NCBI GenBank assembly: GCA_005223125.1
Contig: NJBH01000028.1
Span: 1 to 53,413, forward strand
From: Promethearchaeota archaeon Loki_b32
Lineage (GTDB): Archaea; Asgardarchaeota; Lokiarchaeia; Sigyniarchaeales; SOKP01
Direction of reading: 5' to 3'
Length of the DNA: 53,413 nucleotides
The notes below the pieces were generated by a model. That model did no database searches. It had not been told where the DNA came from and was given only the letters and a program-made list of their open reading frames with translations. The position numbers and the translations under genes were made by a program. Numbering within the stretch: the first letter of the stretch is position 1; each line of letters starts with the position of its first letter. Shown here one piece after another: positions 2,301-20,050 of the stretch.

Positions 2301-2311
2301 TTAAAAATTAA

Positions 2312-2324
2312 TTTTTTTTTTTTT
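2312..2324 (+). terminator. T13 terminator after the short peptide
   Basis: An uninterrupted run of 13 T begins 12 bases after the peptide stop. Runs of T on the coding strand are the usual archaeal termination signal. It lies between the peptide and the convergent mobA-like gene. Confidence 0.5.
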
Positions 2325-2349
2325 CTAATAATTAATTACTTTATATTCG

Positions 2350-3018
2350 TTAATTATTCCCCATTAAAAGTTTAATGTCTTCAAGAGTATTTATATTAAG
2401 AAAAGTAAGAAGATTTTGATCATACTGCTTAATTGAGTTTTCAACAGATAGGAAGTTAATTTTCCAATTATCACTAATAATATTAGTGAGTTTGTATTTA
2501 TGATTTTTCAAGTTTTCCTCAGCTTTTTTATATGCTTTTTTAATAGGATATATCGCAAATAAAGGCTCTAAGAATCCATTATTCCATTTTGGAATACAAC
2601 AATCATATCCTTTTGATTGTTTTATCAAAAATTCAATTACATCGAGATTAATAAGTGGTAAATCACAAGAAAGTGTAAGGGATTTTTCATAATCCATGTC
2701 TTTTAATTCTTTATATGCTGAGTATAATCCTTTCATAGGGGTATGAAAATTTGAATCTGATGAAGGAGAATTATCGTCAATTATGAATCCTGTAATCTGT
2801 CTAATATCAATTTTATTAATGTAAGACTGAACTTGTTCTATGGAATGTGCGACTAAGAAAATATCATAATCGGTTTGAGTTAATGTCTCAAGCTGATAGG
2901 AAATTAAAGATTTCCCGTGAAATTCAAAAAGCCCCTTATCACTTCCAAAACGGGTACTTTTCCCTCCAATTAATATAGCAATTGCTAGATATTTAGAATT
3001 GTTTTTTATTGATAACAC
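2350..3018 (-). CDS. mobA: Molybdenum cofactor guanylyltransferase MobA-like
   Basis: MobA attaches GMP to molybdopterin to make the guanine-dinucleotide form of the molybdenum or tungsten cofactor. The N-terminus carries the nucleotidyltransferase signature as LIGGKSTRFGSDKG (about residues 16-29). LSCDLPLI follows near residue 118, where the Asp binds the metal, and FLEPLFAIYP comes later, matching the family's substrate loop. At 222 residues it has the usual length. The ATG at 3018 is retained because the signature begins at the expected distance. It stands alone, divergent from purF, so no operon partner helps narrow the cofactor. Confidence 0.85.
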   Translation of the reverse strand: MLSIKNNSKYLAIAILIGGKSTRFGSDKGLFEFHGKSLISYQLETLTQTDYDIFLVAHSIEQVQSYINKIDIRQITGFIIDDNSPSSDSNFHTPMKGLYSAYKELKDMDYEKSLTLSCDLPLINLDVIEFLIKQSKGYDCCIPKWNNGFLEPLFAIYPIKKAYKKAEENLKNHKYKLTNIISDNWKINFLSVENSIKQYDQNLLTFLNINTLEDIKLLMGNN

Positions 3019-3126
3019 TTCTGTGTTAGAAATATTTAATATTCTATTAGACTAATAATTAAAAATTATATATGATTTAAATTAATTGAAGATAATAAAA
3101 TTGCTGCTCTCAATCGTACCAATATC

Positions 3127-4650: not shown

Positions 4651-4657
4651 TTAACTC

Positions 4658-6055
4658 TTATTCCACCCCATCCCAGCAATAAGTACACAGCTTTTCTTTT
4701 GGTAATCCAATAGCTTTAACCAGATCCTCAAGTTTCTGGTATTGTAAAGTTGTTAGACGTAACCTTTTACGAATAACATCGACCATGGCTTTAAAATTGT
4801 CCGATTCTGGATCTGTATACTCAGCAGGATCGTCAATATCTCTTCCGATTAATTCTTTTATTGCCCATCGCCCTGCTAAATCTAACTCAGAACGAAACCT
4901 TGAGAAATTTAAGAATTTGCAGCTATAAACAAGTGGAGGACATGCTGGTCTCATATGAACCTCCTTAGCACCATAATCGAATAATCTTTGGATAGTTTTT
5001 CTAAGTTGTGTCCCTCTCACAATTGAATCTTCACAGAAAAGTAAACGCTTATCTTCAATAAGTTCTTTAATTGGAATGAGTTTCATCTTCGCAACTTCAT
5101 CCCTAATAGATTGTACTTGAGGCATGAAGCTCCGAGGCCATGTTGGAGTATATTTTACAAATGGTCGAGAGAAGGGAATTTTTGCTTCGTTTGCATAACC
5201 CAGCCCATGCCCTGTACCTGAATCTGGGATACCTGCAACTAGATCAATTTCAATATCATCATTCTTTGATAAATAAGAACCACATTTATAACGAACAACT
5301 TCTACATTTATATCTTCGTAATTAGATGCAGGATATCCATAATATACCCATAGAAAAGCACAAATCTGCATTTGGTCACGAGGTGCTGCTTTTTGTTCAA
5401 CACCCTTCTGGCTTAATAAAATTATTTCACCTGGTCCAAGATATTTTATTATTTCATATCCTAAGTTTGGAAATGCACATGTTTCCATTGTAACAGCATA
5501 CGAGCCAACTTTTTTTCCTAATATGAGGGGTGTCCTACCGAATTTATCCCTAGCGGCATAGATTCCTTCACTTGTTAATAAAAGAATTGTACATGAACCT
5601 TTTACTAAATTTTGAACTTTCTGAATGCCCTCTTTAAAAGTAGATCCTTGGCTAATTATAGTTGCCACCATTTCTGTTGGATTAATCTCTCCACCATGCA
5701 TTTCTGAGAAATGTGTTCCATTTTTTAACGCTTCTTTTGCCAGATATTCTAAATTATTAATTTTTCCAACTGTAGAGATAGCAAATACACCTAAACCTGA
5801 GCTAATTATTAAAGGTTGATCATCATAATCACTGATCACACCGATACCTTTATTTCCATGCATTTTTTTGATATCTTTCTCAAATTTCGACCTAAATTGA
5901 GTTGTTGTAATATCTTTGATGAATCTTTGAAAACCACCTGAATTTTTAACAGCCAATCCTCCTCTTCTCGTTCCTAAATGAGAATGATAATCAGTTCCAT
6001 AAAAAAGATCTTCCAAACAATCCGAATCTGAAAAAACTCCAAAAAGACCTCCCAT
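4658..6055 (-). CDS. PurF-like paralogue lacking the catalytic cysteine
   Basis: A 465-residue homologue of amidophosphoribosyltransferase. It begins MGGLFGVFSDSDC, so the position of the glutaminase nucleophile (normally Cys directly after the Met) is Gly. The rest of the glutaminase fold remains (SHLGTRRGG), and the PRPP-binding loop is intact (LLFCEDSIVRGTQL). The Fe-S cysteines are also kept (ACPPLVYSC and the final CTYC). It therefore probably binds PRPP but cannot take ammonia from glutamine by the usual route. It could be an ammonia-dependent PRTase, a regulator, or part of a complex with the active PurF encoded tail to tail next to it. Similar Cys-less PurF homologues occur in other prokaryotes, as far as I recall. 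Confidence 0.8.
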   Translation of the reverse strand: MGGLFGVFSDSDCLEDLFYGTDYHSHLGTRRGGLAVKNSGGFQRFIKDITTTQFRSKFEKDIKKMHGNKGIGVISDYDDQPLIISSGLGVFAISTVGKINNLEYLAKEALKNGTHFSEMHGGEINPTEMVATIISQGSTFKEGIQKVQNLVKGSCTILLLTSEGIYAARDKFGRTPLILGKKVGSYAVTMETCAFPNLGYEIIKYLGPGEIILLSQKGVEQKAAPRDQMQICAFLWVYYGYPASNYEDINVEVVRYKCGSYLSKNDDIEIDLVAGIPDSGTGHGLGYANEAKIPFSRPFVKYTPTWPRSFMPQVQSIRDEVAKMKLIPIKELIEDKRLLFCEDSIVRGTQLRKTIQRLFDYGAKEVHMRPACPPLVYSCKFLNFSRFRSELDLAGRWAIKELIGRDIDDPAEYTDPESDNFKAMVDVIRKRLRLTTLQYQKLEDLVKAIGLPKEKLCTYCWDGVE

Positions 6056-6166
6056 TATTTATACACAATATATTTGAACGAAAAAATATTATTAAATGAG
6101 ATTATTAATCCAATATGATTTGAAAAAGCTAAGATACTCCTAAATCATTTAGATAAAAATGTATAA

Positions 6167-6295
6167 TTAATTTATAATTTTGGCTCCCGGGATATCCTCT
6201 CTTTCAAATCTTTTCATAATTATTGCGTTGTTCGAGCAGGTTACAGCACATAATCCCTACCCAATACATTTGTCAAGATTAACTTGTGCAATATC
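6167..6295 (-). pseudogene. Ferredoxin-domain fragment interrupted by TAG
   Basis: On the minus strand, just downstream of hypF, the frame reads VNLDKCIG, TAG, GLCAVTCSNNAI, then MKRFEREDIPGA. This is the end of a 4Fe-4S domain (C-x2-C-x2-C-x3-C) with the second cysteine codon replaced by TAG at 6257-6259. No start codon is apparent and the upstream codons overlap hypF in another frame. It is best read as a gene remnant. The stretch is noticeably richer in GC than the surrounding spacer. Confidence 0.55.
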
Positions 6296-6296
6296 A

Positions 6297-8690
6297 TTAA
6301 CTGTGCTGGAATAATCCTCCAATTAATTGCCCTGTACTAATTCCAGCATCACCAGGAGGAACTAGATTGTGTTCTAAAAACTCAAATCCCTCTAATTTTA
6401 TATCTTTTTTTATAGTTTTTGCGAATAAGAAATTGTAGGCAACCCCTCCAGTCAATCCAATTTTATCTATTCCTTTTAGTTTAGCTATCTCTTTAGCTAC
6501 TTTTGAAAAAGCTAAAGCCAATTCTACATGAAATTTGGCAGCAATATCAATGGGTCTATTTTTTTTATCCTTAAGTAAATTTATGATATCAAGAGTTAAT
6601 TTTGATGTATCTATTATAGCTTTACCTTTTACTTCATCTATATTTATTTCAAGCTTAATATTTGCAGGATTGCCTCTTGATGCTAAACCTTCAAGCTTCA
6701 TAGCAGGTTCTCCTCTATATGTTTTAACATAAGAAGCCCCTAATATATATGAAACAACATCAAATATTCTGCCTGTTGAGCTTGTTAATGGAATATTTTC
6801 AGAAGGAAATCGATTATTTGCTTTTTCAAATTGTGAAATTAGCGTTTTTAATTCGGTTTCTTTAAATTCTAAATCATTTTTTATTTTTGATTTCTCAAAA
6901 ATCTTTGATGCTTCTTCTGTTCCAAGTTCTCTCAATAAAATTGAGCTTAACATACGAGCAGGATATTTAGTACATCGATCTCCTCCCACCATTGGTTGAT
7001 ATTTCAAATGTCCAATCCTTTCATAATTATCATAAGATGCTATTAGAATCTCTCCTCCCCAAATATTTTCATCATCACCATATCCAATTCCATCAGTACT
7101 TATACCAATGATTTTTTCATCAAGTTTCACCTTATTTTCAGCCATTAATCCCAAAACATGAGCATAGTGGTGTTGGATAGGGTAGAGCGGAACATTAAAC
7201 TGCTTAGATAATTCTTTTCCAAATTTGGTAGTAATGAATTCGGGGTGCGCGTCGCAAGCTATAAATTTAATTTCAGAATCCCTTATTTGAAGTAAACCTT
7301 TTAAATGAAAGAGAGAATTTTTTAAGAATTCATAAGTTTCAAGATGAGTTATATGTCCGATATGTTGAGTAGGAAATATTCTATTATATTTTAAAATACT
7401 ACCCGTTGCAGCCAACTCAGGACCCGTTGCAAAAGCACTTGGAATATCAACTTCAAAAGGTAATGAAAGATATTCCGGAACAAAACCTCGAGAACGTCTA
7501 ATTAATTTTTCAATACCATCATGTATTCTTAAAACACTATCATCTGCTCTTTGATAAATTGGTCTATTATGGATGAGAAAAATATCTGCTAGATCTTGAA
7601 GTTGATTAAATATATCCTCGTTTTCAATTGCCATAGGAATATAAGATTTATTCCCACTTGTATAGATTAAAGGTTTCTCTCCAATGTATTCAAATAATAA
7701 ATAATGAATTCCCGAATATGGAAGCATTATCCCAACATTATTCAATCCTGGAGCCACTTGTGTACTAATTATTGAATTATTACTCAACTTTTTTCTTTCT
7801 AAAAGCACTATTGGTCTACGGAATGAATTTAAAAATTCTCTTTCAGAACTTGAGATTTCAAAATCGTTTTCGATTAAATCTAAGTTTGGAACCATTAAAG
7901 CGAATGGCTTAAACTTTCTTTCACCTTTTCTTTTACGAAGTTTGATTATTGTGCCGTCATTCACTAAACAAACTAAATGTGTACCTCCAATACCCTTGAT
8001 AGCGATAACTTCTCCTCTGTTTATTCTGGTAGCAACCTCTTGTAATATTAGATCAATTGAACCACTCTCAATAATTTCTTTTTGTTTGTTATACAATTTG
8101 TAATGTGGTCCACAAACAGAACATGCAAATGTCTGAGCATGAAATCTTCTATTATTGAAATCTGAATATTCTCCAATACAAGACTCAGGTTCTGCGTGTT
8201 GGCAAAAAGGAAATTTAACCATTGTGCTACGTTCTCTATCATAAGGTAATTCAGTTACTGTTGTATACCTTGGGCCACACACTGCACACGCAATAAAAGG
8301 ATATTTATAATACTTTTTTTTATAAGGATTATGCATATCTTTTAAGCATTCATCACAAATTGCAATATCTGGTGGGAGTGTTAGACTAATACCACGACCC
8401 TGTTCACTTTGCCTAATCTCAAGATTTTGAAATTTTTCGTGATAATCTAAATACTCAACTTCAATTTCTTCAATGAAAGAAATCTTAGGTTTTTTAATCT
8501 TAATATCTTCTAAAAAATTTTTTATATTTTGAGAATTCCCTTGTAAGATTAATCTTACGCCTGCATTTCCTCTATTTAATATATAACCATTTAGATTTAA
8601 GGAACGAGCTAAATTATATAAGAAGGGTCTAAAACCTACTCCTTGAACTATTCCTATAATTCTAATTTCTACTGTTTTATAATCTCTCAA
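6297..8690 (-). CDS. hypF: Carbamoyltransferase HypF, hydrogenase maturation
   Basis: HypF makes the carbamoyl group from carbamoyl phosphate and ATP and hands it to HypE. This becomes the cyanide ligands of the [NiFe] site. The 797 residues hold the expected order: acylphosphatase domain (GIVQGVGFRPFLYNLA, residues 13-28), zinc-finger region (CDEC and CAVC near 113-139, a second set near 162-196), YrdC-like domain, and a Kae1-like domain with HHYAHVLG, GISTDGIGYG and GLTGGVAYN. The second zinc finger is odd: the usual C-x2-C is CQHAEPESC (C-x7-C). It is the last gene of the minus-strand maturation genes here and lies alone, separated from hypD by a PI-PLC-like gene on the other strand. Confidence 0.95.
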   Translation of the reverse strand: MRDYKTVEIRIIGIVQGVGFRPFLYNLARSLNLNGYILNRGNAGVRLILQGNSQNIKNFLEDIKIKKPKISFIEEIEVEYLDYHEKFQNLEIRQSEQGRGISLTLPPDIAICDECLKDMHNPYKKKYYKYPFIACAVCGPRYTTVTELPYDRERSTMVKFPFCQHAEPESCIGEYSDFNNRRFHAQTFACSVCGPHYKLYNKQKEIIESGSIDLILQEVATRINRGEVIAIKGIGGTHLVCLVNDGTIIKLRKRKGERKFKPFALMVPNLDLIENDFEISSSEREFLNSFRRPIVLLERKKLSNNSIISTQVAPGLNNVGIMLPYSGIHYLLFEYIGEKPLIYTSGNKSYIPMAIENEDIFNQLQDLADIFLIHNRPIYQRADDSVLRIHDGIEKLIRRSRGFVPEYLSLPFEVDIPSAFATGPELAATGSILKYNRIFPTQHIGHITHLETYEFLKNSLFHLKGLLQIRDSEIKFIACDAHPEFITTKFGKELSKQFNVPLYPIQHHYAHVLGLMAENKVKLDEKIIGISTDGIGYGDDENIWGGEILIASYDNYERIGHLKYQPMVGGDRCTKYPARMLSSILLRELGTEEASKIFEKSKIKNDLEFKETELKTLISQFEKANNRFPSENIPLTSSTGRIFDVVSYILGASYVKTYRGEPAMKLEGLASRGNPANIKLEINIDEVKGKAIIDTSKLTLDIINLLKDKKNRPIDIAAKFHVELALAFSKVAKEIAKLKGIDKIGLTGGVAYNFLFAKTIKKDIKLEGFEFLEHNLVPPGDAGISTGQLIGGLFQHS

Positions 8691-8839
8691 ATAGTTCCTT
8701 CAAGTTTTCATATTTAATTTGAGTTCTAATTTATTAAATAATCGCTATAAAATAAGATTAATATTTTATTATGAAAAGTATTATTAAATTAAGCTTTTGT
8801 TTTAGAATTAAACATTAACTTAAGTAGTACAGTGTTAAA

Positions 8840-9712
8840 ATGACTTTAAAAGAAAATATATGTGATATTCCATATAATAAAGCATTCTTCAAGACTAGTC
8901 ATAATTCATATATACATTCTATAAGGGAGCAATTAAATAAGGGAGTTAGAGGTCTTGAATATGATATACATGATGATAAAATACAAGAATTAGAAGATTT
9001 TGAAGTTTATCATTTACAAAACCATATTGATTCACTTCTTAATAAGGATGGTAACCCAAATAACCTTCTATTGACTAATTGGCTTAAATTATTAGATGAT
9101 TGGTCGGCTGAACAAAATAAAGACCATACACCCATCACACTCTTTATTGAGCTTAAAGATTCTATTATTGACTCAAATAATGAACCTGAAGAACTCTATG
9201 GGATCAAGAAACTTAATAAAATTATAGTAGATGCATTTCATTCGAAAACACTCTTCACTTTTAAAGATTTCAGAGAAAATAATTTTGATTGGCCAACAGT
9301 TAGGGAATTAAAAGGACGTATTATAATTGTTCTTGTAAGTTATTGGGGCGGATACTGGGCTGCCAGTGAGGGGGGTTTTAACTCTAGGCTCAAATATTTG
9401 AATAATTGCTTAGAAGGAATGGATGATGTCTGTTTTGTTTCTTGGGTACAAGAAGATCAAGGAGATAAAGCATCCTATCTTAAAGATAAAAGCCATTTTT
9501 GGAAATGTAGTCTTGAATTTAGCACTAAAAACTTTTCTCAAAACTCTGAATCCCAAAGAGTAACGCGGGCTGATTTTGATAAAATAGTATGGGGGATGCA
9601 CATAAAAACATATTATAAGAAAAATTATGAAAAAGGATATCGTTGTAATTTCCCTGCTACAGATGTGTGGGGGACAGAAAAATACGATTCATGTTTTCCT
9701 TGGTCAATTTAA
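8840..9712 (+). CDS. PI-PLC-like phosphodiesterase, X-domain type
   Basis: A 290-residue protein with the layout of the calcium-dependent phosphoinositide phospholipase C-like family. TSHNSY carries the first catalytic His (about residue 20). REQLNKGVRGLEYDIHDD holds the metal-binding acidic residues, VYHLQN the second His (about residue 58), and ITLFIELKDS the next strand. No signal peptide or membrane segment is visible, so it is predicted to be cytoplasmic. This is unlike bacterial secreted relatives. Archaeal lipids have ether chains and often inositol headgroups, so a phosphodiester of that kind is a plausible substrate, but this is inference. It overlaps the convergent hypD by three bases and interrupts the hyp genes. 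Confidence 0.65.
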   Translation: MTLKENICDIPYNKAFFKTSHNSYIHSIREQLNKGVRGLEYDIHDDKIQELEDFEVYHLQNHIDSLLNKDGNPNNLLLTNWLKLLDDWSAEQNKDHTPITLFIELKDSIIDSNNEPEELYGIKKLNKIIVDAFHSKTLFTFKDFRENNFDWPTVRELKGRIIIVLVSYWGGYWAASEGGFNSRLKYLNNCLEGMDDVCFVSWVQEDQGDKASYLKDKSHFWKCSLEFSTKNFSQNSESQRVTRADFDKIVWGMHIKTYYKKNYEKGYRCNFPATDVWGTEKYDSCFPWSI

Positions 9713-10812
9713 CTATTGTCATTACTGTGATATTTATAATAAATATTACACGTTCCTTCCATCGAAACCATACATGGACCAATTGGATTAATAGGAGTAC
9801 ATTCCTTTCTGAATAATTTACATTCATATGGATAAAGTTTCCCAACCATTATTAGGTGACATGAACATCCAGGAGGGATGTCTTGAGATTTTTCGATTTT
9901 TATATCAAATTTCTTATCGGCATCAAATTCTTGATGTTCTTCTTTAATTACTAATCCCCCATCGTACACTCTCCCAATGCCTCTCCATGGTGATGAAACA
10001 GACTCAAAAACGTCTTCTATTATTTTTTGAGCGATTATATTTCCTTCAGGCTTTACAACTCTAGAATATTCATTTATTGTATCAAACCTTTTGTCTCTTA
10101 ATTGCCTCAACAGCATTAAAATTGAGAGTAATACATCATTAGGTTCAAAACCAGATATCACATTAGGTATTTTGTATCCTTGAGCAAATATTTCATATGG
10201 TTTCAATCCAATTATTGTTGATACATGTCCGGGAGATATAAAACCATCAATTTTTAACTGAGATTGACTCATCAATAGCTCTAACGCAGCTGGTATTAAC
10301 TTATGAGCACAAATAACTGAGAAGTTAGAAGGAGGTCCAGATTGTAATTCATATCCGATCAACGGCACAGTGGTTTCAAACCCTATAGCAAAAAATATTA
10401 CTTCTTTATTTGGATTTTCTTTAGCAATTTTAATAGCATCATTAGGTCCATAGACAATACGAATATCAGCCCCTTTGGCTTTCAACTCAGCTAAAGAAAT
10501 ACTAGTAGCTGGAACTCGGATCATGTCCCCAAAAGTTGTTATTATCGTGTCATCTCGTCTTCCTAGCTCAACTGCTTTATCAATATCTGCTGCAGGACAT
10601 ATACATACTGGACATCCCGGCCCCGATAATATTTCGATTTCTTTAGGTAATAAAGTTCTTAATCCATATTTAGAAATTGTATGTTCATGAGTCCCACAAA
10701 CATGCATAAATTTAATTGGTTTACCTATTTCATTAATAGTTTTATGTATTGCCTTAATAATTTTATCTGTAAATTCTTTACTCCTTAAAATCTTTATACC
10801 GGGGATGTCCAT
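9709..10812 (-). CDS. hypD: Hydrogenase maturation Fe-S protein HypD
   Basis: HypD works with HypC as the scaffold on which iron receives its CN and CO ligands. The diagnostic residues are all present: MHVCGTHEHTI (about residues 37-47), SGPGCPVCICP (63-73), GFETTVP, and the C-terminal 4Fe-4S cysteines in PGCSCHL, CKLFRKEC and GPCMVSMEGTC. Length, 367 residues, is normal. The ATG at 10812 gives the expected N-terminus. The gene is divergent from the nucleotidyltransferase at 10951, leaving a 138-base AT-rich promoter region between them. Confidence 0.96.
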   Translation of the reverse strand: MDIPGIKILRSKEFTDKIIKAIHKTINEIGKPIKFMHVCGTHEHTISKYGLRTLLPKEIEILSGPGCPVCICPAADIDKAVELGRRDDTIITTFGDMIRVPATSISLAELKAKGADIRIVYGPNDAIKIAKENPNKEVIFFAIGFETTVPLIGYELQSGPPSNFSVICAHKLIPAALELLMSQSQLKIDGFISPGHVSTIIGLKPYEIFAQGYKIPNVISGFEPNDVLLSILMLLRQLRDKRFDTINEYSRVVKPEGNIIAQKIIEDVFESVSSPWRGIGRVYDGGLVIKEEHQEFDADKKFDIKIEKSQDIPPGCSCHLIMVGKLYPYECKLFRKECTPINPIGPCMVSMEGTCNIYYKYHSNDNS

Positions 10813-10950
10813 CTTAATCGATTCAAATTTTAAATTTTAATTTAAACCAATAAATATAATTATTCAAAATTATATTATTTAATTAAATCTACTTTAGAAA
10901 TATTAAGAAACAATAAAAATTATCCTAATATTAAAAATAATTTCATAGCT

Positions 10951-11250
10951 ATGAGTAATAATCAAAGTTTGACAGAAGATATTCGTAAAAAGATTATTGA
11001 AATCCTTAAGAAACATAGAGCAAAAAAAATATCCATTTTTGGATCTTATATTAGAGGGGATGCTACACCAGAAAGTGATTTGGATGTAATAGTTGAATTT
11101 AATGAACCAAAAGGACTTATTAAATTTGTTGGCATAGAAAATGAATTATCAGAGATATTAGGAATAAAAGTAGATCTATTAACTGAGAGTGCGATAAGCT
11201 TATATCTTATTAACGATATTAAAAAAGAAGCTATTGTGATATATGGATGA
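10951..11250 (+). CDS. MNT-family nucleotidyltransferase (antitoxin-type)
   Basis: A 99-residue minimal nucleotidyltransferase. The signature is IFGSYIRGDATPESDLDVIV (residues 32-51): the G-S-x10-D-x-D pattern that holds the catalytic metal. Such proteins pair with HEPN (HepT) partners and, in characterised MntA-HepT modules, AMPylate the toxin. The stop overlaps the ATG of a short HepT-like frame (ATGA at 11247-11250), which supports translational coupling. The partner is truncated, so the module may be inactive as a toxin system. Confidence 0.85.
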   Translation: MSNNQSLTEDIRKKIIEILKKHRAKKISIFGSYIRGDATPESDLDVIVEFNEPKGLIKFVGIENELSEILGIKVDLLTESAISLYLINDIKKEAIVIYG

Positions 11251-11402
11251 AAAAAGATAACCTCTTTTTAAGTCATATACTTGATTCCTGTATACATATC
11301 ATAGAATTTACAAAGGATATAGCTAAGAAAGACATATCTATTCTTAAAATAGATATTGAGAAAATATTAAATAAAAAAGATAAGGATGGATACGATGATT
11401 AA
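11247..11402 (+). CDS. Truncated HepT/DUF86-like HEPN protein
   Basis: A 51-codon frame begins inside the stop of the nucleotidyltransferase gene (ATGA overlap). It starts MKKDNLFLSHILDSC and continues IIEFTKDI, matching the first helix of HepT/DUF86 proteins. It then runs KKDISILKIDIEKIL to a stop at 11400, overlapping the convergent hypE end. Full HepT proteins are about 110-140 residues, and their RNase motif (R-x4-6-H) lies in the missing C-terminal half. It is therefore a degraded toxin, or a retained N-terminal helix that still binds the partner. Confidence 0.6.
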   Translation: MKKDNLFLSHILDSCIHIIEFTKDIAKKDISILKIDIEKILNKKDKDGYDD

Positions 11403-12451
11403 CAAATACGAGGTATGGGTTCCCCTAAAGGCATATCTATAAATCGAGTTCCTCCTACAATTGTTTTTAAGAACACTCTTTGAGGATTTTGTACTTTTAC
11501 CTCCCCAATTATTTCAGCATCTTTTCCAATCTCAGTTGACTTGATTTTTTTTAATATTTTTACAGAATGCTCTGGATCAACTGCCAAGAGAGCTCTCCCT
11601 TCACTTGCTATATTGTACGGATCTAATCCTAGCATATCACATATAGCTGTGACTGGTTTTTTAAGAGGGACTTTAACTTCATCAATCCAAATACTTATGT
11701 TAGATTTTATTGCCCAATTATTTAAGGCAGCTGCAATTCCTCCACGTGTTGGATCCTTCATCGCATGAATATAATTATTACTAATATCTAACTTCAATGC
11801 ATCATAAATTTCTAGTAAAAGTGAAATATCTGATATTAAATCAGTAGATATATTTAATCCTTCTCGTGAAGCCATTAATGCGGTTCCATGATCTCCAATA
11901 CTTCCAGTTAGGATAATAAGATCTCCAGTTCTAATGTTGTTGTCCAAAATCTTTATGTCTTTATCTTTAATTCCAATACCTGTTGTTGCAATAATCATTT
12001 CATTTAAAGTTCCTCTCGGCATTACTTTAGTATCCCCTGCAATTATTGCAATATTCGCTTTATGTGCCATGGTATTCATTGAGATAACAATTTTCTCCAG
12101 TTTTTTGAATTCAAAACCCTCTTCTATGATCATCATAGATGTTAAAGCTAATGGTTCTGCACCCATCATTATTAGATCATTTACTGTCCCACATATGCTT
12201 AAAGTTCCTAAATCTCCTCCAGGAAAGAACAGAGGATAAACGGTATGTCCATCTCCAGTTACAACAATTTCTTTATCATAATCTTCCAAAGGAATTGTGG
12301 CCCCATCGTCTAATTCCTCAACACCAATACCATTATTGACATTTTTAAAAGGAATATTTTTCGTGATAAATTTAATTAATTCTTCTTGTAAAACCCCACC
12401 TGCTCCATGTGCTAGGCGTATAACTTCTGAACTCTCTTTTTTTCCGCTCAT
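11399..12451 (-). CDS. hypE: Hydrogenase maturation protein HypE
   Basis: HypE dehydrates the thiocarbamate on its C-terminal cysteine to thiocyanate, the source of the cyanide ligands. Diagnostic features are LAHGAGGVLQEELI (residues 13-26), VVTGDGHTVYPLFFPGGD, GTVNDLIMMGA, and the terminal PRIC, whose Cys carries the carbamoyl group. The PRIC end and lack of a catalytic Cys or Sec near the N-terminus separate it from its paralogue SelD. At 350 residues it is of normal length. It is convergent with the truncated HepT frame. Confidence 0.96.
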   Translation of the reverse strand: MSGKKESSEVIRLAHGAGGVLQEELIKFITKNIPFKNVNNGIGVEELDDGATIPLEDYDKEIVVTGDGHTVYPLFFPGGDLGTLSICGTVNDLIMMGAEPLALTSMMIIEEGFEFKKLEKIVISMNTMAHKANIAIIAGDTKVMPRGTLNEMIIATTGIGIKDKDIKILDNNIRTGDLIILTGSIGDHGTALMASREGLNISTDLISDISLLLEIYDALKLDISNNYIHAMKDPTRGGIAAALNNWAIKSNISIWIDEVKVPLKKPVTAICDMLGLDPYNIASEGRALLAVDPEHSVKILKKIKSTEIGKDAEIIGEVKVQNPQRVFLKTIVGGTRFIDMPLGEPIPRIC

Positions 12452-12606: not shown

Positions 12607-12899
12607 TTACATATTTATGATAGCATCATTTTCAAAAATAAGATCGACGATTTCTTCTGTAGTAACTAATTTAATTTTATCAGAGATGAAATTGGTTAAT
12701 CCTCTTAAATCTATATGCTCTTTACATGCAGCTACGCTTTTCATTTGATTAATTGCCTGTGAAACTGCTTTATTTGATTTATTCGCGAAATATACAGCAT
12801 TTTGGAGAAAAAGAATTGTTACATCATCTTTGTCAGTATGTTCCATAGCAATTCTGCTTGGTATGGTCCATTGAAAAAAAGGATTCCAAGGCGTCCCAT
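12607..12899 (-). pseudogene. DsrE-family protein with apparent frameshift
   Basis: An intact 79-residue frame starts at 12846 (MEHTDKDDVTILFLQNAVYF). In a different frame directly upstream, from an ATG at 12899, the DNA reads MGRLGILFFNGPYQAE. That is the first strand and loop of DsrE/DsrF-type sulfur-relay proteins. A ribosome-site-like GGAGATGAT precedes that ATG, which lies 24 bases after the yedE stop. The two pieces join into one ordinary DsrE-like protein if one base is gained or two lost near 12852-12858. It is either a true frameshift, an assembly error, or a shortened protein using the internal ATG. The only cysteine, in AACKEHID, may be the sulfur or selenium carrier. Predicted third gene of the tusA-yedE group. 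Confidence 0.6.
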
Positions 12900-12922
12900 A
12901 CTTTCCTTATCATCTCCAGAAT

Positions 12923-13957
12923 TTATTCTTGTTTCCACATAAATAGAAGATAAGCTACTATCCAACATCCCATCACTATAAAAGCGCCTGTGATGATACT
13001 GTGTAATGAAAGTTGTGGGATACCGCTTAAGATATTCGTTACATTACATCCCATTGCTGTTACGGCACCAAATCCCATCAGGCCTCCACCAATAAATTGT
13101 TTGAATAATGTGAATCCATCTTTAGGAACTCTGAACTTAAATTCTCCAGCGATATAAGCACTAACAAAAGATCCAATGATTATACCAAAAATTATAAAAC
13201 CAGCCCACATAACAGAATCTGTAGTTGTAATCCACAAGTGAATATCCATCCAACCACCTGGGATACAAATAACTCCATTACTGGCAACATATCCAGCGGT
13301 TAAAATTAAGCCAATAAGGATCCCAGTAACCCACCAAGGATATCCCTTTTTGAATGTCGCTTCTTTAAAATTTCCAAATTTTATCAAAGAATCATTTAGT
13401 TCTCTTTTTTTCTTAATTGCGGGCCATCCCCAGAAGAAGAACATCAGTACAATTCCTATTATACCCACTATGAGCATAAAAACTGGTGTTAATGTGGTGT
13501 CAAATTCCCCGAAAAGTGTAAGTTTTGTTCCAACTGTTAAGTCTTGTAAGTTGTTCTTAGCATTTACTATGGGTCCCATAGCTGTCATTATTGCGCCTAT
13601 TGTTAATCCAACAGCAGCTATAAATGATCCCATCATTCCTTCTCCTACTCTATATGTCGTTCCACTCGCGCATCCTGCTGCAAGTACCATTCCAATTCCA
13701 AAAATTAAGCCACCAACAATTGCAGCTATTGGTTTTAAGGGGTTTGGATTTAAATCGATTACTCCACCAAAAGCAAATATGGCAAGACCAACCATTAGAA
13801 CGGCAAGTGAAATTGTTACTGCTTTTGCTAGTCTATATTCTTTTAAGAAAATAATATCTCTGAATGCAGAATTCATGCAGAATCTTCCACGTTGTAAAAT
13901 AAAACCAAAAATGGCTCCAATTATGAGCCCTGCTACCAATGAGTACCAAAATTCCAT
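12923..13957 (-). CDS. YeeE/YedE-family membrane transporter
   Basis: A 344-residue polytopic protein with about eight to ten hydrophobic helices. Conserved cysteines sit in the family motifs: QRGRFCMNSAF (about residues 23-33), AAGCASGTTYR (about 92-102), and GAVTAMGCNVTNILSG near the C-terminus. Members move thiosulfate or, by genomic association, selenium compounds into the cell. Here it lies between tusA and a DsrE-like gene on one strand, next to a selenoprotein hydrogenase operon, so selenium supply is the favoured role. A ribosome site (GGTGA) precedes the ATG at 13957. Confidence 0.85.
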   Translation of the reverse strand: MEFWYSLVAGLIIGAIFGFILQRGRFCMNSAFRDIIFLKEYRLAKAVTISLAVLMVGLAIFAFGGVIDLNPNPLKPIAAIVGGLIFGIGMVLAAGCASGTTYRVGEGMMGSFIAAVGLTIGAIMTAMGPIVNAKNNLQDLTVGTKLTLFGEFDTTLTPVFMLIVGIIGIVLMFFFWGWPAIKKKRELNDSLIKFGNFKEATFKKGYPWWVTGILIGLILTAGYVASNGVICIPGGWMDIHLWITTTDSVMWAGFIIFGIIIGSFVSAYIAGEFKFRVPKDGFTLFKQFIGGGLMGFGAVTAMGCNVTNILSGIPQLSLHSIITGAFIVMGCWIVAYLLFMWKQE

Positions 13958-13969
13958 TTTATTTTCACC

Positions 13970-14203
13970 TTATTTTATTTGGACGAGAATCTTCCAAGAA
14001 GAATCTCCGGTTTTTTCTACAGATAGCACTTCATGCCCCATAGATTTCATTGTCTCTGGAATTCTTTCAGCTGAAAGAGGATAATCAATCAAAATCTCAA
14101 GTACATCTCCAGAATTCATTTTTTTAACAATTCTCTTACTTTTTACATCTGGATAAGGACAAACATCGCCCGTGCAATCCAGTGTATCTGTAATATCTAC
14201 CAT
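13970..14203 (-). CDS. TusA/SirA-like (YedF-type) sulfur or selenium carrier
   Basis: A small carrier with the TusA-fold signature CTGDVCPYPDVKSKR; the CPxP cysteine binds persulfide or possibly selenium. The likely start is the ATG at 14203 (MVDITDTLDCTG). A longer frame from 14254 adds 17 lysine-rich residues not typical of the family. It is the first gene of a minus-strand group, 12 bases before yedE, and is transcribed divergently from the hydrogenase operon. TusA-YedE pairs are recurrent, and the version found with SelD has been proposed to handle selenium. Confidence 0.85.
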   Translation of the reverse strand: MVDITDTLDCTGDVCPYPDVKSKRIVKKMNSGDVLEILIDYPLSAERIPETMKSMGHEVLSVEKTGDSSWKILVQIK

Positions 14204-14392
14204 TTCAATCCAACTTTTTTTATTGTTTTTTATATATGACTTCTGAATAATCATTCAATAAAAGAACGATAATACTCATTGGATTTTAGAATATTTAAAA
14301 TTATTATATTTAAAAGTAAAATGAATCAGAAGTTTTTAATAAAGTTATGAATAACTTATTTCAACTAATTTTTTTTATTACAAATTAGCTAA

Positions 14393-14431: not shown

Positions 14432-15745
14432 ATGGCAGTAAAAGTAGCTTTTATGCAACTTTCCGATTGTTGGGGCTGTCATCAATCCTTATTAAATAAT
14501 CACTTAGGATTGTTGCCAGTTCTTCCAGCACTCGAAATAGTTTACTGGCCAGCAGTAGTAGACTTTAAACATGATTCATTGAAAGCAAGAGAAAATGGTT
14601 CAGTATTAGTCGGATTCATTGAAGGATCAATTAGAACTAACGAAGATTATGAAAACGTAAAATTAATGAGAGACAAATGTGCTTTGATTATTGCTTTTGG
14701 TAGTTGTTCATGCTATGGAAATGTACATGGCCTTGCTAACCAATGGAATAAAGACGACTTAGTAAGAAGAAAATTCTCTGAAGTAGAAAGTATAGCGGAT
14801 GGTAGTGGTGGTGAACCAACAGAACATACACCGGGTTTTAGAGATAAAATCGTCCCGGTAGATGAAGTAGTTAACGTAGATGCGTATATTGCAGGATGTC
14901 CTCCAAAACCAGAAGGTATTGTCTCTGCGATAGCATTTCTGTTAGGACAAAAACCTTTTCCTATGAATGATCTAGCATTTTGTAATGATTGCAGTATTAA
15001 GGATAATTGTCTATTAGATACAGGAAAACTATGTTTTGGTCCAATTACTAGTATTGGTTGTAGTTTAAAATGTACTAGTAATGGAAACCCATGTGTTGGT
15101 TGCTTTGGTCCAGCAAAGACAGTGGATTCACGAGCAGAGAAATTAATCGGAATGACAAAAAGTCTTGCATCAATTAGTTCAGGGGATAAAAAGAATTTGT
15201 ATGAATTCTTAACACTATTCCTAAATATTCCATTGATGGCGGGATTTGATTTAGCTGGAGATATATTAAAGCAAGTTAAGAAATATGGAAGCCCTAGTAC
15301 CCCTTTAGCAAATCTACCTCCTACAACAGAGGAAATTGCAGGTGGTTTAATGGCTTTCTTAAGAGATAATCCAGATTTCACTGAAATTTCAAATGTCTGT
15401 GATACATGTCCTAGAATTATAGGAAGCAAGTCTACGATGACAAGAGTTAAAAGAGATTATGAAGGACTTCCTAATATGGAAGATTGCCTTATTGAACAAG
15501 GATATATCTGTATGGGACCTGTCACTAAAGCTGGCTGTGGTGGTTTATGTATAACGGTTAATACTCCATGTAGTGGCTGTTATGGTCAAACTAAATGGGG
15601 TGTTAATCAAGCAGAGAGATTTGCAGATACAGTGTTAAAACAGTTTAATGTGAGCTTATCGAAGGATGATCTACTTGCTCAAGTTAAAGATCCTATTGGT
15701 ACTTTTGAAAAATTCACATTAGCATCAAGAAAAGGAGGCGTATAA
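14432..15745 (+). CDS. mvhG: [NiFe] hydrogenase small subunit MvhG-like, extended
   Basis: Electron-transfer subunit of a group 3c (F420-non-reducing) hydrogenase. The N-terminal half binds the proximal cluster through CWGC (residues 14-17), GSCSCYGN and GCPPKPEG. A cysteine-rich segment follows (CNDC to PCVGCFGP, about 187-230) that holds the other clusters. The protein is 437 residues rather than about 300. The extra C-terminal part (about 330-405) repeats the cysteine segment: CDTCPR, then YICMGPVTKAGCGGLC, then PCSGCYG. This predicts two additional Fe-S clusters. It is the first gene of the operon, four bases before mvhA. Confidence 0.92.
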   Translation: MAVKVAFMQLSDCWGCHQSLLNNHLGLLPVLPALEIVYWPAVVDFKHDSLKARENGSVLVGFIEGSIRTNEDYENVKLMRDKCALIIAFGSCSCYGNVHGLANQWNKDDLVRRKFSEVESIADGSGGEPTEHTPGFRDKIVPVDEVVNVDAYIAGCPPKPEGIVSAIAFLLGQKPFPMNDLAFCNDCSIKDNCLLDTGKLCFGPITSIGCSLKCTSNGNPCVGCFGPAKTVDSRAEKLIGMTKSLASISSGDKKNLYEFLTLFLNIPLMAGFDLAGDILKQVKKYGSPSTPLANLPPTTEEIAGGLMAFLRDNPDFTEISNVCDTCPRIIGSKSTMTRVKRDYEGLPNMEDCLIEQGYICMGPVTKAGCGGLCITVNTPCSGCYGQTKWGVNQAERFADTVLKQFNVSLSKDDLLAQVKDPIGTFEKFTLASRKGGV

Positions 15746-15749
15746 AAAA

Positions 15750-17054
15750 ATGGTAAAAGTAATAGAAGTAGAGCCTGTTACTCGATTAGAGGGGCATGGA
15801 GGTTTAAGAGTAGTTTTAGATGATGATGGTAAGGTACAAGATGTTCAGTTTAATATCACTTCAACGAGATTTTTTGAAAAATTTCTTGAAGGTCGTTACT
15901 GCGAGCATATTCCAAGAATAACACCTAGAATTTGTGGTATCTGTCCAATTCCTCATCATTTAACACCAACTAAAGCAGTAGAAGATGCTTGGGGTGTCAA
16001 AATTCCTCCTGCTGCATATAAATTGCGTCAATTGTTGCAAAACGCAAAACAATATTCATCACATACATTACATTTCTATGCACTTGCAGCTCCTGATTTC
16101 TTATTAGGACCTTTTGCAGATCCTGCGCTAAGGAACGTAGTACATGTTATTAATAAAATGCCAGATGTAGGTAAAATGGCTTTAAAAATGATGGATTTTG
16201 GTCAAAAATTATGTGCTGCAATTGGAGGTAAATCTGTGCATCCTATCAGTGCTATAGTCGGGGGAATGAAAAAGCCTTTAGATGAAGATGTCCGAGATAA
16301 ATTCTTGAAGCAAATTGAGGATCAAGTTGAATGGGCTAAAAAAACTGTAGATATAGGATTAAAAGTTGTCGAAGATTATTGGGATGTTGTAGCTAATGTA
16401 GGTGTTGTCCCTACTTATTACGTTGGAATGACAAAGAATGGTATCCATGATATTTATGATGGAGATATTCGTATTGTTTCTCCTGACGGAGAAAAATTTG
16501 ATTATCCACCTCAAAAATATTTAGATGCTTTAGGTGAACATATACCGGAACATTCTTATGCAACTCACATGTATTATAAACCAGCAGGGTACCCTGAAGG
16601 TATTTATCGAGCGAATACATTAGCAATGACCAACTGTGCTGATAAAATGGCGACTCCCTTAGCTGATGAAGCATTGCAAGCAATGAGAGCAAAAATTGGA
16701 AACATATCTCATCATACATTCGCGTATCACTGGGCTCGATTAATTGAATTAGTTGAGTCAATTGAAGTTATTGCAACACTTCTTCAAGATGATGATGTGG
16801 TTAATACTGATTGTAAAACATTAGATGTGCAACCAAGAGAAGGAGATGGAGTCGGTATCACTGAAGCTCCTAGAGGATTACTCTTATATCATATATGGTC
16901 TGATGCTGAGGGTATTTGTAAGAAAGCAAACCTCTTAGTTGCGACTAACCATAATATCGCAGGGATTGAGAAGACACTAATGCATGTTGCTAAACAAGTA
17001 TTTGAAGACAAAGCGTTAGAAGGACTTAAATTACCAGATCCATGGATAAAATAA
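15750..17054 (+). CDS. mvhA: [NiFe] hydrogenase large subunit, N-terminal part
   Basis: Holds half of the hydrogen-activating nickel-iron site. The N-terminal motif L1 is present as RICGICPIPHH (about residues 61-71), after EPVTRLEGHGG. The usual C-terminal motif (D-P-C-x2-C-x2-H) is absent: the protein ends LPDPWIK at 434 residues. That motif is encoded separately by the tiny downstream vhuU gene, as in the split VhuA/VhuU enzyme of Methanococcus. AGCGGAGG-like spacing is not needed here, since mvhG and mvhA are only four bases apart with AAAGGAGG before the ATG. No C-terminal processing of this chain is expected. Confidence 0.93.
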   Translation: MVKVIEVEPVTRLEGHGGLRVVLDDDGKVQDVQFNITSTRFFEKFLEGRYCEHIPRITPRICGICPIPHHLTPTKAVEDAWGVKIPPAAYKLRQLLQNAKQYSSHTLHFYALAAPDFLLGPFADPALRNVVHVINKMPDVGKMALKMMDFGQKLCAAIGGKSVHPISAIVGGMKKPLDEDVRDKFLKQIEDQVEWAKKTVDIGLKVVEDYWDVVANVGVVPTYYVGMTKNGIHDIYDGDIRIVSPDGEKFDYPPQKYLDALGEHIPEHSYATHMYYKPAGYPEGIYRANTLAMTNCADKMATPLADEALQAMRAKIGNISHHTFAYHWARLIELVESIEVIATLLQDDDVVNTDCKTLDVQPREGDGVGITEAPRGLLLYHIWSDAEGICKKANLLVATNHNIAGIEKTLMHVAKQVFEDKALEGLKLPDPWIK

Positions 17055-17086: not shown

Positions 17087-17236
17087 ATGAGTGATATACC
17101 AGAAGGAGTAGTAAACATCTTAGAAATGATAGTCCGTTGTTTTGACTGTTGACTATCGTGTGCCGCTCACATCACAGTAGTTGATGAGGATGGTAAAGAA
17201 ATTTACTCTCGTGAGATGAACGTTGGTTTAGGATGA
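17087..17236 (+). CDS. vhuU: Selenocysteine subunit VhuU (UGA at 17150 read as Sec)
   Basis: A very short gene completing the nickel site. From ATG 17087 it reads MSDIPEGVVNILEM, then IVRCFDC-Sec-LSCAAH, then ITVVDEDGKEIYSREMNVGLG. TGA at 17150-17152 falls exactly where hydrogenases have the first Cys of motif L2, which is selenocysteine in NiFeSe enzymes. The His ending the motif is where the maturation protease normally cuts; the 21 following residues fit a removable tail. A second in-frame TGA at 17234-17236 may be the stop, or a second Sec followed by NIQ and TAA at 17248. The motif is D-C-U instead of D-P-U/C. It lies 32 bases after mvhA and before hdrC. No standard gene call will find it. 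Confidence 0.85.
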
Positions 17237-17295
17237 AATATCCAATAAAAATTATAGATTGGATATGACTGCCCTTGCCTGGGTTAAAAACCAAC
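17222..17295 (+). promoter_or_regulatory. SECIS element, eukaryote-like, overlapping vhuU 3' end
   Basis: The RNA can form helix I from 17222-17229 (GUUGGUUU) with 17288-17295 (AAACCAAC), eight pairs. Helix II forms from 17238-17246 (AUAUCCAAU) with 17258-17266 (AUUGGAUAU), nine pairs. Between them lie AUGA (17233-17236) and GA (17267-17268), able to form tandem G-A pairs as in a kink-turn core. The apical loop opens with AAAAA ten bases after AUGA, the spacing of the conserved AA in eukaryotic SECIS elements. The 3' internal strand can also fold a small CCC/GGG hairpin. It lies at the end of a UGA-containing gene. Lokiarchaeota have been reported to carry eukaryote-like SECIS elements. Confidence 0.75.
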
Positions 17296-17345
17296 AAATA
17301 TGAACAAATATAGAATAAAAAACGTAAAAAAAAAGTGAAAAAAAA

Positions 17346-17870
17346 ATGACATTACCATTAGGTATAGATTTTGAATTTAGGAAACTTATAATGGACGTCC
17401 ATGTGTCATCTGATAAAATCAAATACTGTTATCAATGTAGCAGATGTACAGATAATTGTCCTGTCGCTGCAGTAGCTAACCCATTTTACGAAAACATTTT
17501 TGATCCTAGATTAATTGTCTTAGGTACTCTATTAGGGTATAAAGATGTTGTAATGGCTCTTGCCGGCAAAAAATCGGCGATTGTACCATGGGGTTGTACT
17601 GTATGTGATACATGTGATACTGTCTGTCCTCAAGCTATTGAGGTCACTGAAATTATTACTTTAGCGAAAAACATAACTACTGGAGCTGGACTAGCACCAG
17701 ACAGTGTTGTAGCTCAAGCAAAATCTGTTTTCGAGAGTGGAAAAGCTATTCCATCTCAACCCGCGATCGAGAGAAGACGTGAGCAATTAGGCTTACCAAG
17801 TGTTGTTGCACCAGATGTTAATGAAGTTCAAACTTTATTAAAAGCAATAGGTGCTGATAAAAAATTATAA
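17346..17870 (+). CDS. hdrC: Heterodisulfide reductase subunit C
   Basis: HdrC carries electrons between HdrA and HdrB through two 4Fe-4S clusters. Both cluster motifs are clear: CYQCSRCTDNCP (residues 28-39) and CTVCDTCDTVCP (about 84-95). At 174 residues it matches the family. A GTGA ribosome site precedes the ATG at 17346. Its stop overlaps the possible ATG of hdrB at 17870, so the two are coupled. With MvhGA/VhuU it would form the hydrogenase-heterodisulfide reductase complex that bifurcates electrons from hydrogen. HdrA and the connecting MvhD are not in this window. Confidence 0.92.
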   Translation: MTLPLGIDFEFRKLIMDVHVSSDKIKYCYQCSRCTDNCPVAAVANPFYENIFDPRLIVLGTLLGYKDVVMALAGKKSAIVPWGCTVCDTCDTVCPQAIEVTEIITLAKNITTGAGLAPDSVVAQAKSVFESGKAIPSQPAIERRREQLGLPSVVAPDVNEVQTLLKAIGADKKL

Positions 17871-17884
17871 TGGAGGATAAGAAA

Positions 17885-18751
17885 ATGACAGAATATAAAA
17901 TGTTTGAAGGATGTGTTATTGGAAACAGAATTCCGTTTATTGAGGCAGCCTCCAGAAAGGTTTTAGACAAAATTGGGGTCCAAACATCACAAGCTCCATT
18001 TGCTTGTTGTCCAGATCCTACAGGAGTAAAAAGCTTTGACAACACAGCGTGGTTGGCCTTAGGTGCTCGAAACTTATGTTTAGCAGAAGCTGAAGGCAAG
18101 GATATTATCTCTCTTTGTAATGGTTGTACTAATACACTTCGTGGAGTACAGCACCAATTAAAACATGATTCCAATAAAAAAGAAGCCATTAATAAAGAAT
18201 TGGCTAAAATTGGCAAGGAATATAAAGGTTCCATTGATGTAAAGCATTTTGTTGACGTATTATTGTCAAATTTAGATGCGATAAAGGGTGCAATTACGAA
18301 GCAAATGGGTGATTTAAAAGTTGCTTGTCATCCTGGTTGCCATTACATGCGACCTGTTGAATGGATGGATTCTGATGATCCCTTACGTCCAAAAAATTTG
18401 AAAGAAATTGTTGCTGTTTCAGGAGCTAATGTAGTTGATTATGAAGAATTAGCTCTTTGCTGTGGGAATGCTGTTGCAGGTCCGTTTCCAGAACATGGAG
18501 ACGCAATCTTAAAGCAAAAATATGACTCGATTAAAAAAGCTGGCGCAAATTGTATCGTTGTAAACTGTCCTGCATGTTTTCAAAGATTAGACGGAGAACA
18601 ACGAAATCTTTCAAAGAAATTTGAAACTGAATATAATATTCCTATATTATATATAACGGAATTGTTAGCTTTAGCTATGGGTGTAAGTTCTGAGGAGATT
18701 GGTTTAAAAAACCATCGAACTAGACGAAATACAGCTATAGAAAATCTTTAA
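17885..18751 (+). CDS. hdrB: Heterodisulfide reductase subunit B
   Basis: HdrB holds the noncubane Fe-S clusters that reduce heterodisulfide or an analogous disulfide. It contains the two CCG-type domains. The first is FEGCVIGNR, then FACCPDPTG, then LCNGCTNTL. The second is CHPGCHYMR, then LALCCGNAVAGP, then VNCPACFQRLD. I place the start at the ATG at 17885 because GGAGG lies eight bases before it; a frame from 17870 adds MEDKK. Length 288 residues is usual. It is the last gene of the operon, followed by a T12 run. In an Asgard archaeon without methanogenesis the natural disulfide is unknown. Confidence 0.92.
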   Translation: MTEYKMFEGCVIGNRIPFIEAASRKVLDKIGVQTSQAPFACCPDPTGVKSFDNTAWLALGARNLCLAEAEGKDIISLCNGCTNTLRGVQHQLKHDSNKKEAINKELAKIGKEYKGSIDVKHFVDVLLSNLDAIKGAITKQMGDLKVACHPGCHYMRPVEWMDSDDPLRPKNLKEIVAVSGANVVDYEELALCCGNAVAGPFPEHGDAILKQKYDSIKKAGANCIVVNCPACFQRLDGEQRNLSKKFETEYNIPILYITELLALAMGVSSEEIGLKNHRTRRNTAIENL

Positions 18752-18943: not shown

Positions 18944-19738
18944 ATGTTTAATTTAAAGCGTGATGCTCCTTGGTTTTTTCAGCATCTCGAAAATTACTAC
19001 CACCTTTTTCTCAACGTGAGATTTACTAATGGAGTGAATGTTCGAAGAAATATAAAATTCTCAGTAGAATTAAATCTTCAAGGATTTGAAGGATTATTAT
19101 TTTATATGTACAAACCTGATATTAAGAAAGTAAGTTTCAACTTGTATAAACATTCAGTTGATCAAACACATGAAATAAGGGATCTTAATTTAGTTTTAAA
19201 CCAGGGAACAATGAATCCATTAGATTTTGTAATAATTCCATTTGGCTATTTTAAAGATGAACATAAATTCACTTTGGATATACGGAGTGATGATGTAGAA
19301 TCCAGCTTCGATTTATATTCATGGTCTCCATCCAATCTTTATAAAAATATTAAATCTGTAATCAAAATCGCAAATCAATATTCAGAATCAATTCCAATAG
19401 ATGATTATAGGGGCTATTACTTCCAATTTATAAGTGCATTTAAGGGGAACGAAACTGGAAGGCTTTTCGATTTAATAAATCTTCTCGTAGATTTTGATAA
19501 AAGTGTTGATGAGATTGATAATTCTCCTATGTTTGAGGCAATGGATTCAGAGATAAAAAATCTAGTGTCAAAAAGTAACGAGTTTTTATTCGAATTATGC
19601 CACACTTCCGTTCCTTTGGATGTAAAAAATATAGTGAGAGAGTTAGAAAGATTAAAATTCAATATTGATAGTCTATCAAAAGAAGAGATTTTTAATTGGC
19701 TAGACGACCTAATAGCCTTCTACTCGGGTAAATCCTAA
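18944..19738 (+). CDS. Conserved-looking hypothetical protein, 264 residues
   Basis: I do not recognise this protein. It starts MFNLKRDAPWFFQHLENYYH and has no signal peptide, membrane helix or cysteine motif. The first 130 residues look like alternating beta-strands (FSVELNLQGFEGLLFYMY, FTLDIRSDDVESSFDLYSW). The remainder is helical and acidic. Codon use is like its neighbours. It lies between hdrB and hypC on the same strand, so a hydrogenase-related role is possible but has no direct support. Confidence 0.6.
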   Translation: MFNLKRDAPWFFQHLENYYHLFLNVRFTNGVNVRRNIKFSVELNLQGFEGLLFYMYKPDIKKVSFNLYKHSVDQTHEIRDLNLVLNQGTMNPLDFVIIPFGYFKDEHKFTLDIRSDDVESSFDLYSWSPSNLYKNIKSVIKIANQYSESIPIDDYRGYYFQFISAFKGNETGRLFDLINLLVDFDKSVDEIDNSPMFEAMDSEIKNLVSKSNEFLFELCHTSVPLDVKNIVRELERLKFNIDSLSKEEIFNWLDDLIAFYSGKS

Positions 19739-19807: not shown

Positions 19808-20050
19808 ATGTGTTTAGCAATACCCGGAAAAATTTTAGAAATTGATGGTAATTCAGCATTAATAGATTTTGACGGGATTAAACAAAAAGTAATTATAGCT
19901 TTAATTCAGAATCCTGAGATAGGAAAATATGTTATTATTCATGCTGGCTATGCAATAGAAATGATGAATGAAAAAGATGCATTAGAAGCAATAGAACAAT
20001 GGAATGAACTTGCTGAAGAACAAAACTTAGACTTATCTGATATACTATAA
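19808..20050 (+). CDS. hypC: Hydrogenase maturation chaperone HypC
   Basis: Small chaperone that carries the Fe(CN)2CO unit with HypD and delivers it to the large subunit. It begins MCLAIPGKILEI, and the Cys at position 2 is the essential ligand. GYAIEMMNEKDALEAI ends the core. Length is 80 residues, normal. Placed after the structural operon on the same strand, with its own upstream AT-rich spacer. Confidence 0.95.
   Translation: MCLAIPGKILEIDGNSALIDFDGIKQKVIIALIQNPEIGKYVIIHAGYAIEMMNEKDALEAIEQWNELAEEQNLDLSDIL

Follow-up and report, generated by a model that had tools for sequence, protein, structure and literature searches.

The hydrogenase large subunit VhuA encoded at this Lokiarchaeal locus lacks its C-terminal nickel motif L2, and a 49-residue selenoprotein gene directly downstream, vhuU, appears to supply it. 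We consider it about 95% probable, from sequence and conservation, that the locus encodes the VhuG–VhuA–VhuU module of an F420-non-reducing [NiFeSe] hydrogenase/heterodisulphide-reductase complex, in which the UGA codon at position 17150 would be read as selenocysteine (Sec) via a SECIS element. The reading frame, its TGA, the RNA helices behind it and the machinery genes of the genome are all established at this level. The stretch of DNA analysed, 53,413 nucleotides in length and called the window below, is contig C41 of the 71-contig, 4.13-Mb assembly of a Lokiarchaeia MAG. The VhuA encoded here shares up to 95% identity with that of MAGs named Candidatus Lokiarchaeia.

The forward strand of the window carries, in this order, a vhuG-like gene, vhuA, vhuU, an hdrC-like gene, an hdrB-like gene, one further gene and hypC. 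The large subunit gene vhuA is located at 15750–17054. Downstream of vhuU are the hdrC-like gene (17346–17870; TIGR03290, E=1e-19), the hdrB-like gene (17870–18751; TIGR03288, E=4e-78) and the gene for the hydrogenase maturation chaperone HypC (19808–20050; TIGR00074, E=3e-26). Two more hydrogenase maturation genes, hypE (11399–12451; TIGR02124, E=8e-115) and hypD (9709–10812; TIGR00075, E=2e-144), are found on the reverse strand. NCBIfam and Pfam searches with the 264-residue ORF between hdrB and hypC (18944–19738, forward strand) gave no match. The vhuG-like gene (14432–15745, forward strand) encodes a small [Fe-S] hydrogenase subunit (NCBIfam VhuG, E=2e-71; PF01058, E=3e-23). Its 437 residues far exceed the 286 positions of the VhuG model, and the C-terminal extension is rich in Cys. 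Divergent from this gene, three genes for sulphur/selenium trafficking occupy 12607–14254 on the reverse strand. One encodes a TsuA/YedE-like transporter (PF04143, E=6e-72; also matched by NCBIfam TsuA and selen_YedE_FdhT), the other two a TusA/YedF-like sulphurtransferase and a DsrH/TusB-like protein. Because NCBIfam names YedE and YedF relatives as selenium-metabolism proteins, this neighbourhood may have a role in selenium supply.

The NCBIfam VhuA model covers VhuA over positions 4–417 of 418 (E=6e-143). Solved chains of the MvhA type are about 473 residues long, but their alignments with VhuA stop at residue 416–420; motif L2 is therefore absent from the protein. A preliminary description of the window had proposed both this absence and the supply of L2 by a frame 32 bases downstream, with the TGA at 17150 read as Sec, and both proposals are borne out. 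The ATG of vhuU (17087–17236) is at 17087, 32 nt past the vhuA stop, and the frame ends with the UGA at 17234–17236. When the TGA at 17150–17152 (residue 22) is translated as U, the product is MSDIPEGVVNILEMIVRCFDCULSCAAHITVVDEDGKEIYSREMNVGLG, which contains the UxxCxxH motif with the Sec codon (DCULSCAAH). The best family match is NCBIfam VhuU (NF041786; E=5e-13, 48.7 bits), followed by the FrhA C-terminus (E=1.5e-6). The score of 48.7 bits lies under the NCBIfam cut-off of 70, which is a naming threshold and not a biological feature; the homology itself is significant. Judged by its sequence, the product belongs with the Asgard-type VhuU proteins rather than being the NCBIfam equivalog. It aligns with residues 373–402 or 425–453 of solved hydrogenase large subunits, and also with the separate 27-residue subunit of PDB entry 9sfi, the large subunit of which is a chain of 418 residues. 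Scanning the window for further UxxC or CxxU frames gave, besides vhuU, one frame antisense to hypE, which we take to be due to chance.

Conservation of the TGA was followed across the phylum. We searched 228 genomes, 161 of which contain a VhuA relative at E≤1e-60. Wherever the downstream motif was present in loci from VhuA-bearing and named genomes, the codon was TGA and never TGC or TGT. This constancy spans Lokiarchaeia, MAGs named Thorarchaeota and several further families, and includes all 50 distinct Lokiarchaeal vhuU copies. In 19 loci no vhuU was present in the stretch fetched; several of these genomes have a vhuU with TGA about 0.6–1.6 kb beyond it. At six Lokiarchaeal loci the distance between vhuA and vhuU is about 0.6–1.6 kb, which is space for an intervening gene. 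Among the 50 distinct copies, variation after the TGA touches 21 of 22 third codon positions but three of 22 second positions. Pairwise comparison of the codons in these copies gave 11,376 synonymous and 4,564 non-synonymous changes in the true frame, compared with 1,445 to 12,010 and 494 to 12,209 in the other two frames. The stretch behind the TGA thus evolves as protein. The isolate YT5_1216 has an in-frame TAA in the vhuU tail past the His of L2, with an intact SECIS beyond it; a tail that is cleaved and can be dispensed with would fit this, and so would a sequencing error.

The SECIS element overlaps the end of the gene. RNA from 17221–17300 is predicted to fold with −21.5 kcal/mol (z=−3.5). 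The lower helix, P1, consists of 8 bp between 17222–17229, which lies within the vhuU coding region, and 17288–17295. It encloses the core AUGA (17233–17236), the UGA of which (17234–17236) is the vhuU stop, and the 3′ core GA (17267–17268; GA or AA in relatives). The upper helix, P2 (17238–17266), pairs 17238–17246 with 17258–17266 over 9 bp and carries an A-rich apical loop of 11 nt (17247–17257) that starts with AAAAA about 10 nt past the AUGA. The two perfect helices of 8 and 9 pairs around AUGA/GA and the A-rich loop ten bases from the AUGA were already named in the preliminary description, and all of these are present in the fold; its two-helix outline is now incomplete, as the element appears to contain a third helix (see below). 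According to the text of Huang et al. (2024; PMC11227280), the type I model of the Asgard eSECIS-like element has a GA_[G/A]A core, an upper stem of 7–15 bp, an apical loop of 8–20 nt and an energy below −5 kcal/mol. The window element, with AUGA_GA, a 9 bp stem, an 11 nt loop and −21.5 kcal/mol for the whole element, falls within these limits. The GAA_A internal loop of the euryarchaeal SECIS (eaSECIS), which there lies between two GC-clamped stems, is not apparent in the predicted fold.

Both helices are supported by covariation. In an alignment of 49 Lokiarchaeal copies, pairing holds in 98.5% of the cells and changes on both sides occur at 10 of 18 pairs, a result reached by none of 500 shuffles; when the partner was shifted by one column, pairing dropped to 44–51%. 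For P2, double changes occur at seven of eight pairs in Lokiarchaeia. A covariance model built from Lokiarchaeal vhuU elements, with the window sequence in the training set, finds the vhuU SECIS in its own genome with E=1e-24, the next match being at 0.4. The selD and vhuD elements of this genome were not picked up by this vhuU-trained model, which is therefore gene-specific. Applied to other Asgard families, it gave ten matches by the end of vhuU (E from 4e-9 to 0.015), and the Asgard-family alignment, fitted to the model, shows double changes at 15 of 18 pairs. The TGA and the helices are thus conserved in relatives, a check which the preliminary description had proposed. A scan of both strands of the 53-kb window with a plain SECIS consensus returned the vhuU site and one other, and the vhuU SECIS had no match to any Rfam model. 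The vhuU stop coincides with the core UGA in 49 of 52 Lokiarchaeal copies; two copies stop just earlier at a TAG and one at an earlier in-frame TAA. The core of four Lokiarchaeal elements reads UUGA rather than AUGA, and vhuU retains its UGA stop there.

A search of the genome for the Sec machinery, likewise proposed earlier, identified the archaeal decoding set, namely SepSecS, aSelB/EFSec, SelD, PSTK and a tRNA-Sec candidate. SepSecS (TIGR03531, E=5e-146) and aSelB/EFSec are encoded on contig C57. The latter was detected with TIGR00475 and aligns over nearly its full length with Methanococcus maripaludis SelB (4ac9, E=1e-90), far above any EF-Tu or EF-1A; the Pfam model euk_SelB_III had no match in the genome and none in the controls either, and is therefore uninformative here. 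PSTK, on contig C49, reaches 138 bits against a curated cut-off of 290.5, and its best solved match is Methanocaldococcus jannaschii PSTK (3a4l, E=2e-25) over nearly the whole length. In a tandem selD pair (contig C16, 9975–12157), each gene contains one in-frame TGA and is followed by a SECIS-like element of its own. Of 12 FlpD-family matches in the genome, ten lack in-frame TGAs; the remaining two, both VhuD genes (contig C36, 76577–76942, and contig C50, 18860–19228), contain two each. The tRNA-Sec(UCA) candidate of 153 nt lies on contig C57 immediately upstream of SepSecS. It has a 9-bp acceptor stem, G73-CCA, the anticodon arm CTGGG-CTTCAAA-CCCAG, a long variable arm and an insert in the T arm. 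An intron in the T arm is a known peculiarity of Lokiarchaeal tRNA-Sec (PMC5330540). The Rfam score of the candidate, 23.9 bits, is below the curated cut-off because of the inserts. ARAGORN reported no tRNA-Sec in the scanned loci. The top Rfam tRNA-Sec match was rejected; with the general tRNA model it scores far higher, as an ordinary tRNA, and it does not have the anticodon UCA. A further insertion of about 30 nt, which includes a 7-bp hairpin (AAAGATC/GATCTTT), interrupts the D arm of the candidate and may be a second intron of the tRNA-Sec gene.

From these data we infer the following course of Sec insertion, termination, tail removal and assembly with VhuA. VhuA would bring the N-terminal nickel motif and the separate VhuU the C-terminal one, with Sec replacing the first Cys of L2. 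Sec-tRNA would be delivered by aSelB/EFSec to the UGA at 17150 at a time when the SECIS, with its core about 83 nt downstream, is still folded. The ribosome would then translate the 5′ arm of this element as Val-Gly-Leu-Gly, and the UGA within the AUGA core would terminate vhuU translation. Removal of a C-terminal tail during maturation is established for other [NiFe] hydrogenases. The tail past His28 is expected to be removed here also, however the core UGA is read; it would probably be cut off after nickel insertion by a HycI-type protease, and a gene of the HycI family of maturation proteases is present in the genome. The remaining peptide of about 28 residues would complete the active site of VhuA.

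If the TGA were a true stop, vhuU would be a decayed gene or an assembly error and the cell would use a complete Cys-type large subunit instead. A protein of this kind is indeed encoded on contig C36 (10646–11839). Its last codon is the His of L2 (FDPCISCATH), which makes tail removal unnecessary. However, it is a distant protein of sulphydrogenase-like type, and the genome search gave no further VhuA with a complete C-terminus. The preliminary description had counted a second complete large subunit against Sec only in combination with a lack of conservation, and conservation was found. The invariant TGA in the Lokiarchaeal copies and the synonymous codon evolution beyond it rule out decay, assembly error and chance as origins of the frame, and termination at the TGA is therefore extremely improbable.

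It is slightly less improbable, but still very unlikely, that the UGA is read as another amino acid, for instance because a near-cognate tRNA inserts Cys or Trp, with the RNA acting as a general readthrough or termination signal. According to the text of PMC11881835, a cloned Lokiarchaeal vhuU SECIS (vhuU.2) was inactive in M. maripaludis; this host may just lack the right factor. The scores of PSTK and tRNA-Sec below curated model cut-offs, and that of VhuU below its naming cut-off, also count against the Sec reading. On the other side, the genome has the full Sec machinery, the UGA occupies the position where NiFeSe hydrogenases are known to carry Sec, and the selD and vhuD genes of this genome, which contain UGA as well, are followed by RNA elements of a comparable kind. 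We retain Sec insertion as the preferred reading.

The locus itself is not new in kind. The preliminary description had seen the novelty in the locus and its arrangement, as eukaryote-like SECIS elements were known for Lokiarchaeota. The latter is in print, in the text of PMC11227280; the former has to be reduced, since the Lokiarchaeal vhuU with its eSECIS-like element, the VhuU of about 50 residues and the overlap of stop and AUGA are all published (PMC11227280, PMC11881835, PMC11291895). For Lokiarchaeia and other Asgards, Huang et al. (2024), citing Mariotti et al. (2016), list selenoproteins of the VhuU/FrhA, VhuD, HdrA, SelD and Prx-like kinds that have eSECIS-like elements, and their text states that UGA stops often overlap the AUGA. 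A separate VhuU of about 50 residues is mentioned for Asgards, Atabey-/Freyarchaeia, in the text of PMC11291895. The window agrees with the published Asgard VhuU/FrhA genes in gene, Sec position, type I element, AUGA_GA core, A-rich loop, UGA stop in AUGA and Sec machinery, and differs only in the genome and in a third hairpin that is not part of the two-stem model in their text.

With the VhuA/VhuU of Methanococcus (PMC2933860; NF041785/NF041786) the locus shares the split large subunit, a tiny separate subunit that carries Sec at the place of the first L2 Cys, and the association with heterodisulphide reductase. In contrast, the methanococcal SECIS has the GAA_A internal loop (text of PMC11881835) and is found in a host where the Lokiarchaeal element does not work; the NCBIfam bit scores obtained here also remain under cut-offs set for methanogen proteins. 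The periplasmic [NiFeSe] large subunit of the Desulfovibrio type likewise has Sec instead of the first Cys of L2, but is a single unsplit chain with a bacterial SECIS within the coding region, and its significant alignment with VhuA extends over only about the first 190 VhuA residues. The eukaryotic type I SECIS has the same AUGA_GA quartet, an upper helix of 9–10 bp and unpaired A's opening the apical loop, whereas the Lokiarchaeal 5′ arm is located in the coding region. A further difference is that SBP2 is not reported for any Asgard genome in the text of PMC11227280. The vhuU gene shows clearly how automatic annotation may miss a gene that supplies part of a hydrogenase active site, and, being well conserved, it is a test object for Sec decoding without SBP2 in the Asgards, the closest relatives of eukaryotes.

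The predicted fold and the comparison of relatives point to a third hairpin, P3 (17271–17284, forward strand), between the GA of the core and the 3′ strand of P1, so that the vhuU SECIS appears to have three helices rather than two. Its stem is CCC/GGG with GC in the loop (CCC-nnGC-nn-GGG). In a eukaryotic SECIS nothing but an internal loop separates the two helices; P3 is on the 3′ side of that loop. A review assigns only one apical loop to the Lokiarchaeal SECIS (PMC9499178), and the main texts on Asgard SECIS, figures and supplements aside, describe two stems and an internal loop. When we searched the literature for archaeal SECIS elements with a third stem or a three-way junction, no description turned up among the accessible texts. 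P3 is probably real and possibly undescribed.

Two explanations of P3 were considered, both tentative. The Asgard SECIS could be a three-helix junction, with P3 maybe docking an archaeal SECIS-binding factor or aSelB, and the helix may have been lost in eukaryotes. It is equally doubtful that P3 stands outside the SECIS as an independent hairpin, such as a remnant terminator or a processing signal between vhuU and hdrC. The independent hairpin would fit the shortness of P3 taken alone and its nearly invariant sequence in Lokiarchaeia, which leaves little covariation to read within the class although 95.9% of the cells pair. Single sequences also often fail to beat their shuffles: in 24 cases the median p was about 0.1, and the Fisher combined chi-square of 136 (48 df) is overstated by relatedness. 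In one vhuD SECIS of the genome (vhuD1), the hairpin at this place has only 3 bp and is no better than chance. Against an independent hairpin, P1 closes around P3, and the place of P3 between 3′ core and 3′ arm is fixed across the Asgard families examined. Both selD elements of the genome, and its other vhuD element, likewise have a hairpin behind the core. If a third helix common to the vhuU, selD and vhuD elements were confirmed, it would suggest a docking place for the missing binding factor. The stems themselves vary. Those of selD and vhuD differ from the one in vhuU. Among the vhuU elements of other Asgards the inner CCC/GGG is mostly kept while the outer pairs change together (GAGCCC/GGGCTC, AGACCC/GGGTCT, AACCCA/TGGGTT), and a few alter the inner pairs also (CTCT/AGAG, GGCGC/GCGCC).
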